Origin: Thermoproteota archaeon
GTDB taxonomy: Archaea > Thermoproteota > Thermoprotei_A > Sulfolobales > Pyrodictiaceae
Assembly (NCBI GenBank): GCA_013153145.1
Contig: JAADEY010000047.1
Coordinates: 1-32,342 of the forward strand
Direction of reading: 5' to 3'
Length of the DNA stretch: 32,342 bases
Numbering within the stretch: position 1 is the first letter of the stretch; each line of letters starts with the position of its first letter. Below are positions 7,456 through 9,603 of the stretch, one piece after another. The notes below the pieces were generated by a model. That model made no database searches. It was not told where the DNA came from and saw only the letters and a list, made by a program, of their open reading frames with translations. Position numbers and translations under genes: made by a program.

Positions 7456-8298
7456 ATGGCGCGGACCCCCACACTGAGCTTCAAATCAAAGCCCGTCATA
7501 GGAGTTGTACACCTACCCCCACTACCAGGCTCGCCCAGGGGAGGCAACATAGACGGGCTAACAGGCTACGCTGTCAATGAGGCCGCAAAACTCGTCGACA
7601 AGGGCGTCGACGCCGTGATAATAGAGAACTACGGCGACAAGCCGTTCACCATCCGCGTCAAAAACCCCGCAACCCTTGCAGCAATGGCCATAATCGTGCA
7701 CGAGGTTGCAAAAAGCCTCAACTACCGCGTCCCAGTAGGCGTAAGCCTACTACGCAACTCCGGCCCCGAAGCCATAGCAATAGCATATACCTCCGGCGCA
7801 TCATTCGTAAGAATCAACGCATACTGCGAACCCCGCGTAGCACCCGAAGGCCTCCTAGAACCAGTCATGAGGGAAGTAGAGGAGATGAAACACCGGCTGG
7901 GCGCCGACACAATACAAGTCTTAGCCGATATAGACTGCAAGCACAGCAAACCCCTAACCCCAGGATACGACCCACGCGAAGCCGCAAGAGAATGCATAGA
8001 GAGAGGATCACCCACAGCAATAATCGTGACGGGGCCGAGGACGGGCGAGCCCCCGCATCCAGGCTACGTAGCTGCAATAACTAGAGCCGTAGATATACCA
8101 ATCATAGTCGGCAGCGGGGTAAACCCGGAAAACATAAGGATATACTGGCCCATAGCGTCGGGATTCATAGTAGGCACATACTTCAAGACAGATGGAAAAA
8201 CAACAAACCCCGTAGACCCCAAGAGAGTCGAATCACTAATGAGCATCGTGCACACCCTTAGATCAACGGAGAAGAGAAGCCAACAAAGCAAACACTAA
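7456..8298 (+). CDS. BtpA/SgcQ family TIM-barrel protein
   Basis: The 280-residue protein begins with the family hallmark VIGVVHLPPLPGSP (residues 14-27). Barrel strands follow: DAVIIENYGD, VGVSLLRN, FVRINAY, QVLADIDCKHS, AIIVTGPRTG and the phosphate-binding end IIVGSGVNPENI. BtpA was linked to photosystem I assembly in cyanobacteria, and SgcQ sits in sugar-metabolism gene sets. The function in archaea is unknown, and the phosphate-binding loop suggests a small-molecule enzyme. The start ATG 7456 follows GAGGAGAGAGG. Codon usage towards the 3' end is richer in A than in neighbouring genes. The gene is divergent from yjbQ with a 147-base gap. Confidence 0.9.
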   Translation: MARTPTLSFKSKPVIGVVHLPPLPGSPRGGNIDGLTGYAVNEAAKLVDKGVDAVIIENYGDKPFTIRVKNPATLAAMAIIVHEVAKSLNYRVPVGVSLLRNSGPEAIAIAYTSGASFVRINAYCEPRVAPEGLLEPVMREVEEMKHRLGADTIQVLADIDCKHSKPLTPGYDPREAARECIERGSPTAIIVTGPRTGEPPHPGYVAAITRAVDIPIIVGSGVNPENIRIYWPIASGFIVGTYFKTDGKTTNPVDPKRVESLMSIVHTLRSTEKRSQQSKH

Positions 8299-8327
8299 AA
8301 CAAGTCCATACACAGACACCGAGAATG

Positions 8328-8517
8328 GGCGGGCGGCCCGCCCCCGCGACAACCCGGCGTCACCGGGGAGCGAATGAACGGGGGCTCCGTCGGGCGGCGT
8401 TCAAAAACCCAATACATTCCGACAGAGGACTAAGCCAGGCCACACGGAGCAAGTCATTGAGCCGAGAAGAGGGGTTCTGCATGCCCACCGCGCGAGTGGA
8501 GCGGTGGGGCATGCTGC
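8328..8517. ncRNA. Candidate structured non-coding RNA (GC-rich, several hairpins)
   Basis: The gap between two real genes is markedly GC-rich and folds locally. GGGCGGG pairs with CCCGCCC across CGG (8328-8344). CCCGG pairs with CCGGG, and GGAGC pairs with GCTCC, in the following ~55 bases. A strong 13-pair stem with one bulged base and a nine-base loop occupies 8479-8514. Stable GC stems in an otherwise moderate-GC intergenic region are the usual mark of RNA genes in hyperthermophiles. I could not match it to tRNA, 5S, SRP RNA (no GGAA...AGCAG helix 8) or the RNase P core. Strand is uncertain: a weak CTAAAA element (8295-8300) would place a plus-strand start near 8325. The frame across it does not look like protein. 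Confidence 0.45.
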
Positions 8518-8523
8518 CAAAGG

Positions 8524-8536
8524 TTAAAAAATAACT
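8524..8536 (-). terminator. T-run terminator of the gene ending at 8555
   Basis: On the minus strand TTATTTTTTAAC (six T's at 8526-8531) lies about 25 bases past the stop codon of the 8555-9565 gene, the usual place and form of an archaeal poly-T terminator. The same A/T block could alternatively act as a TATA box for minus-strand transcription into the hairpin region. Confidence 0.45.
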
Positions 8537-8554
8537 GTCTTCAACGCCTCCCCG

Positions 8555-9565
8555 TTACTTCGACATGCCGAAGGTTAGGTTGAAGAGGCTGTCTAGCTCC
8601 TTCTTTATCTCCTCGCGCTTCTCCTTGACCGCCTTGACTACGGACTCGAGCACTAGGTATGCCCTGCTCGGTATCTTACCCTTGAACCATGTAGTATCCT
8701 TAGCCATTCCTACTCCTAGCTTCTCGTAGGGTATGCCGGTCAGCGGATCCTCCTCACGCTCGTTTATCAGTCTGTCAAGCTCTAGTACTAGCGTGCCTCT
8801 GGGTAGCATGTAGTCGCCGTAGGGGTCGACTAGCTTCAGCACCTGCTTCTTTATCTTGCTCAGTGCCCTTATGCCTAGTATCTTCTCTGGTGTAGGCCTT
8901 ATCTTGGCTGACTGGAGGGCTCCCAGGAGCGCTATTATGCCGCTTAGATCGCTGAAGGGCTCGTACCACGGCCTGCCCTTGCCGACGGCTGGCATAGCCT
9001 CCGCGGCCGCCCTCATTAGGGTCTGGCCGCTTAGTGCCAGGTTGTAGCCGCAGGCCTTCCTGAACCTCTCGTCCAGCGCTATGTCTATGATGCTCTCTGA
9101 CTCGCTACCGACGAAGAGTGCGTGCCTCGCAGGAGTGTCAAACACTATGCCCATGTAGAAGCTGAACATCACGGATGCCTCGGGGCTCTTGGCGGCGTTT
9201 ATCACGGTGTCGCTCAGCAGCGTCCTCGATAGAGCTATGTCGCTCAGCCTCCTGGGGGTCTCGGTGAGCGATACTATCCTAGCAACGCCGAACGCCTGCA
9301 GCATCCTCAGGTAGTAGAGGAGGTCGCTCATGCCGAAGTTCTTGAGCGCTATGTACTTCTCGCCGAGCATCTCAACCCTCACAACGCCGCCAACTATCTC
9401 GCTGACGCGCTTAGGCTTCTCGCCGGGGGCGGCAGCACCCATCAACATGTCCTTATAAAACTCTATTAGTCCTACTATCCCTCCTAGCTTCCCCTGCGCA
9501 GCCGCTGCCAGCTCCTTAAATCTCCTGGGAACCCTGGCTTCCAAGGTTAGAGGAGGTAGCAACAT
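8555..9565 (-). CDS. Conserved-looking hypothetical protein, mostly helical
   Basis: I do not recognise this protein of about 336 residues. It is predicted to be largely alpha-helical, with a Lys/Glu-rich C-terminal helix (KAVKEKREEIKKELDSLF) and no signal peptide. A moderately hydrophobic centre (ASVMFSFYMGIVFD) is not long enough for a safe membrane call. An upstream ATG exists at 9595, but a TATA-like TTTATCTC (minus, 9604-9611) would start transcription near 9582, inside that extension. The internal ATG 9565 is preceded by GGTGGGAG, so it is chosen. The gene stands alone, divergent from the MBL-fold gene and ending at a T-run. Confidence 0.65.
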   Translation of the reverse strand: MLLPPLTLEARVPRRFKELAAAAQGKLGGIVGLIEFYKDMLMGAAAPGEKPKRVSEIVGGVVRVEMLGEKYIALKNFGMSDLLYYLRMLQAFGVARIVSLTETPRRLSDIALSRTLLSDTVINAAKSPEASVMFSFYMGIVFDTPARHALFVGSESESIIDIALDERFRKACGYNLALSGQTLMRAAAEAMPAVGKGRPWYEPFSDLSGIIALLGALQSAKIRPTPEKILGIRALSKIKKQVLKLVDPYGDYMLPRGTLVLELDRLINEREEDPLTGIPYEKLGVGMAKDTTWFKGKIPSRAYLVLESVVKAVKEKREEIKKELDSLFNLTFGMSK

Positions 9566-9603
9566 GCTCCCACCGCTCCAAGAACGAGTATACATACTCG
9601 CTG

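Follow-up and report, generated by a model that had tools for sequence, protein, structure and literature searches.

A probable H/ACA-like small guide RNA family with predicted 16S rRNA targets, encoded beside a BtpA-family gene in a hyperthermophilic archaeon

The rules described for archaeal H/ACA RNAs include a 10-bp GA stem and an ANA box at 14-15 nt (PMC4652768). In the H/ACA-like RNAs of Pyrobaculum the lower stem is missing and the box is often NCA, and such stem-truncated motifs have been described as specific to Pyrobaculum (PMC4652768). Sequence comparison leads us to consider it highly probable that positions 8331-8403 (+ strand) of the window, which is the whole 32,342-nt stretch of DNA that was analysed and a single contig from an archaeal genome that is 79% complete in 47 contigs, encode a small guide RNA of the archaeal H/ACA-like type with a predicted target in 16S rRNA. 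With the Pyrobaculum H/ACA-like sRNAs (sR203-sR210; PyrR205 = RF02803) this RNA has in common a single kink-turn hairpin, a 10-layer GA stem, two free guide strands, a vestigial lower stem and a degenerate box at canonical spacing, which is of NCA type in theirs and NYA in this family (PMC4652768). It differs from them in sequence, in its order, in having no Rfam match and in possessing guides that fit 16S rRNA, not the targets described for theirs in the portion of the literature available to us. The canonical H/ACA sRNAs Pab91 (RF02795) and HgcG/Pab40 (RF00064), which are retrieved alongside this family by one covariance model, share its kink-turn, GA-stem length and guide pocket, but have an 8-9 bp lower stem and an ANA box that this family is without. 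Sso1, a crenarchaeal H/ACA guide of Sulfolobus and also of A. pernix that guides tRNA-Tyr U35 (PMC4652768), would use the same proposed machinery, but differs in its canonical 10/5/9 fold and its tRNA target.

The RNA lies in a non-coding gap of 256 nt (8299-8554) between a BtpA-family gene and an opposite-strand gene whose protein has no Pfam match, an arrangement of the two genes that is kept in the closest syntenic relative (L002). The initial annotation had seen here a GC-rich intergenic gap of about 190 bases; the gap is indeed non-coding, but it is longer than was stated, and its GC-richness is a property of its first third (G+C 72% at 8300-8399). The features of the locus are as follows.

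7456-8298: BtpA-family gene (PF03437, E 3.5e-76).
8331-8403, + strand: conserved core of the putative H/ACA-like guide RNA, about 73 nt, from homologues and covariation; the true ends are perhaps a few nt outside.
8334-8339, + strand: predicted 5′ guide strand CGGCCC (alignment A4, pairing scan, predicted fold).
8340-8349, + strand: 5′ side of the GA stem, ten layers, comprising G8340, C8341-C8347 and the kink-turn G8348 and A8349 (compensatory changes).
8353-8367, + strand: distal (non-canonical) stem CCCGG/CCGGG with loop CGTCA (alignments A1-A4, compensatory changes).
8375-8385, + strand: kink-turn TGA (8375-8377) and 3′ side of the GA stem (8378-8385), from invariance and pair counts.
8386-8396, + strand: predicted 3′ guide strand TCCGTCGGGCG, complementary to 16S rRNA (target scans with permutation controls).
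8401-8403, + strand: degenerate box of ACA type (TCA), lying 15 nt past the GA stem, at the position of the relatives' box.
8479-8514, strand unspecified: 13-pair hairpin of the predicted fold, no part of the guide RNA.
8555-9595, - strand: the unknown gene, encoding a 346-aa protein.

Minimum-energy folding was set aside as evidence for an RNA, because it was not significant either for the whole gap (z -1.65; 13 of 200 shuffles equally good) or for the core (z +0.24). Such unremarkable scores, together with a 13-pair hairpin downstream of a minus-strand gene, would suit a gap that has no RNA gene but only a transcription terminator or the noise of GC-rich intergenic sequence. It is between-species comparison, not folding energy, that establishes the RNA at 8331-8403 as real. 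When 58 relatives were searched at the DNA level, four other genomes proved to contain a piece of some 45-82 nt, with identities of 89% to 77-82%; its neighbours are the same in one of these and different in the others. In L002, where synteny is the same, identity to the conserved part is 89% over 82 nt. A covariance model (R1) built from these five sequences (the window and four relatives) without any H/ACA knowledge had matches with E <= 0.01 in 70 of the 214 genomes searched from the order, and with a second covariance model (R2) the count was about 48 genomes at E <= 2.3e-8, a single one of them from outside the window's order. Among 30 copies aligned to the model, pairing was kept in 96.3% of cells (76.4% when shuffled), double-changed cells numbered 57 as against 14 in shuffles, none of 500 of which was as good, and the covariation score was 0.476 as against 0.111 (0/500), a signal that was lost when the partner was slid by one column. 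Across 36 sequences, compensatory changes occur at all seven pairs of the lower helix. That the sequence is conserved and covaries in distant genomes, where its neighbours differ, thus refutes, at the level of sequence comparison, the noise or terminator explanation for 8331-8403, which on this evidence is a structured RNA. For 8404-8554 that explanation is possible, and as an account of the locus as a whole we give it almost no credence.

These comparisons divide what the initial annotation had proposed, namely a new structured RNA, perhaps a guide or a lineage-specific one, whose stems should covary and be conserved in the syntenic gap. The helices of 8331-8403 do covary strongly, and this part is conserved in L002 and absent from Rfam; it has the anatomy of an H/ACA guide and is confined to one order apart from the single match outside. 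Positions 8404-8517, by contrast, are not conserved. The failure to place the RNA in a known family was borne out by an Rfam search of the gap down to E 10, which returned a single isrB match that we attribute to chance. The 13-pair hairpin that had been described at 8479-8514 exists (13 pairs with one bulge, -26.3 kcal/mol, z -3.2, 0 of 200 shuffles), but L002 contains no counterpart of it, or of the gap outside the conserved part, and as an unconserved element it was dropped as part of the RNA. It is situated downstream of the minus-strand gene and past a run of T (8526-8531, minus-strand reading), and may belong to the 3′ end of that gene.

The architecture common to the 36 sequences is that of ten stacked layers, consisting of a first layer (mostly G·U, G·A or G-C), seven pairs and two G·A layers, in which alignment columns 10-19 are matched with 51-61; the exceptions are one sequence with an extra base and two with a shifted stem. 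The T, G and A of the kink-turn are invariant (36/36), and in every member the strand opposite TGA is RA, with the 7-pair stem below and a short distal stem above. Kink-turn pairs are A·G (A19·G51) in 35, G·A in 22 and A·A in 11 of the 36. An NYA trinucleotide follows the GA stem by 15 nt, its third-position A being present in 17 of the 19 relatives of standard length; conservation does not extend to the first A, and just one of the 19 has an ANA box. In the predicted fold GCCC (8336-8339) is able to pair with GGGC (8392-8395) to form a short lower stem. The canonical lower stem of 7-9 bp is absent, as at most these 4 bp, GCCC/GGGC, are available (f1, f4, f9, f10), and the pairing is weaker in f6. 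Because there is no ANA box and the lower stem does not exceed 4 bp, the RNA is termed H/ACA-like and not canonical. Three sequences (L099, L107, L114) have a distal hairpin arm that is longer by about 15-40 nt, with no change in their guide parts.

None of the H/ACA families of Rfam matches this RNA family, even at E 10. Its own covariance model also retrieves paralogues for which Rfam H/ACA models give matches coinciding in position and strand, with E values of 4.6e-6 to 3.8e-5 for Pab91, 8.6e-5 at best for PyrR205 and a weak 0.071 for HgcG, and the weak model matches separate into distinct families. The window's genome encodes Cbf5 (TIGR00425, E 4.3e-135). That the family is new, Rfam-absent and within the known class of pseudouridine guides is therefore well supported by these comparisons. 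In the mechanism that we propose, L7Ae would bind the kink-turn (GA/UGA) atop the ten-layer stem, and Cbf5-Nop10-Gar1 would contact that stem together with the degenerate NYA box. From each flank of the stem a single strand would pair with 16S rRNA, so that the two bracket a uridine, which Cbf5 would convert to pseudouridine.

An L7Ae-bound kink-turn RNA could instead have some other role, for example in the antisense chaperoning of 16S folding or as an element of the BtpA mRNA 3′-UTR. The complementarity of the 3′ strand to 16S GAACGCGCCCGACGG is unusually long (10-15 nt), and the window's copy, which starts about 33 nt past the BtpA stop, has no obvious TATA box of its own upstream of the core; the BtpA promoter may drive its transcription. 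Against this alternative, the RNA adjoins unrelated genes in other genomes, and in some copies a TATA-like hexamer precedes the core by 25-40 nt. As the geometry and the NYA box also fit H/ACA, and the same model retrieves known H/ACA RNAs, we regard a non-guide role as improbable and favor the H/ACA-like guide.

The window's genome bin is without 16S rRNA, and pairing with 16S was scored on relatives; searches with RF01959 and RF02540 found rRNA in few MAGs, so that some guides were scored on clade proxies. In a two-strand anchored scan of 16S and 23S, the best site was ACGGG-UA-GGGGCC at E. coli 16S U287, where both strands pair in all 23 representative guides and reach 8-9 pairs in some lineages. 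Its mean energy was -25.7 kcal/mol, the runner-up site having -12.9, and 400 column permutations yielded nothing as good, in tests that keep column composition and leave the relatedness of the guides uncorrected. When mismatches and one unpaired guide base were allowed, the best site became GGAACGCGCCCGACGG-UG-AGGGG at about U757 of 16S, with a 3′-strand mean energy of -24.3 (equalled in 1 of 361 such permutations) and a two-strand sum equalled in none of the 361. Here the main lineages attain ten Watson-Crick pairs on the 3′ strand; in the f6 lineages, in which that strand has changed to GCGCGTTC, it is still complementary to GAACGCGC. The two sites have the core CGACGG in common and fit about equally well: the U287 site leaves GGGCGG unexplained, while the ~U757 site does not account for why T8386 is invariant and the 5′ register variable. 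The target uridine is thus most likely, as judged from predicted pairing, the equivalent of E. coli 16S U287, for which canonical two-strand geometry speaks, and/or ~U757, for which the long 3′-strand complementarity does. More tentatively, and with less than even confidence, we suggest that one CGACGG-complementary strand, in a lower-stem-less H/ACA-like guide outside Pyrobaculum, modifies both U287 and ~U757, with lineages drifting to either. Many genomes of the order contain the target sequence and no match to the family. A third 16S site, GGGA-UC-GAGGGC, was dropped, its 3′ duplex having just 3 bp.

An H/ACA-like guide of this kind might alternatively have its true target at the 5′ end of 23S rRNA (E. 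coli U29, in the 5.8S-like region), where a 13-bp duplex, TCCGTCGGGCGGC/GCCGCCCGGUGGA, can be drawn. In four lineages this duplex has 13 contiguous pairs (two of them G·U) next to a U, but shuffled guides give 13-nt matches in 6-8% of cases and the 5′ guide strand is unpaired at the site. Moreover, in G044 and G063 a target U has become G while the guide is the same, and the duplex breaks at position 4. This site, our first candidate, was dropped on the strength of this comparison and because f5 genomes with altered 23S targets have no matching guide, and we judge it very unlikely to be the true target, the 16S sites being preferred. The 23S 5′ region of L127 and L128 (G063 and G044) reads GGGGGATGG, and that of nearly all relatives reads GGTGGATGG.

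Further guide-like RNAs of the order were encountered in the same searches. Divergent relatives of Pab91 occur in L095, L106, L108 and L204 (G108, G109, G116, G119; E 4.6e-6 to 3.8e-5), and divergent relatives of PyrR205 (Pyrobaculum sRNA 205), with the motif ACCCCGG-stem-CGGGTCACTCCCGGC, in L085, L086, L088, L115 and L206, both sets scoring under the Rfam gathering score. The same models also retrieve a kink-turn hairpin family in L197, L199, L203 and L035, GGGCAGCYCA-stem-TCCACnGGGCGGCG, and two others in L082, L091 and L030 and in L093 and L116. An Rfam search with L197, L199, L203, L082 and L093 gave no significant match, and these three families are probably more H/ACA-like guides.

If the H/ACA-like assignment is correct, the family adds a guide RNA absent from Rfam to the repertoire of hyperthermophilic Crenarchaeota and extends the stem-truncated H/ACA-like type beyond Pyrobaculum. 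It predicts specific pseudouridines in 16S rRNA, and the covariance models derived from it retrieve several more H/ACA guide families in the order.
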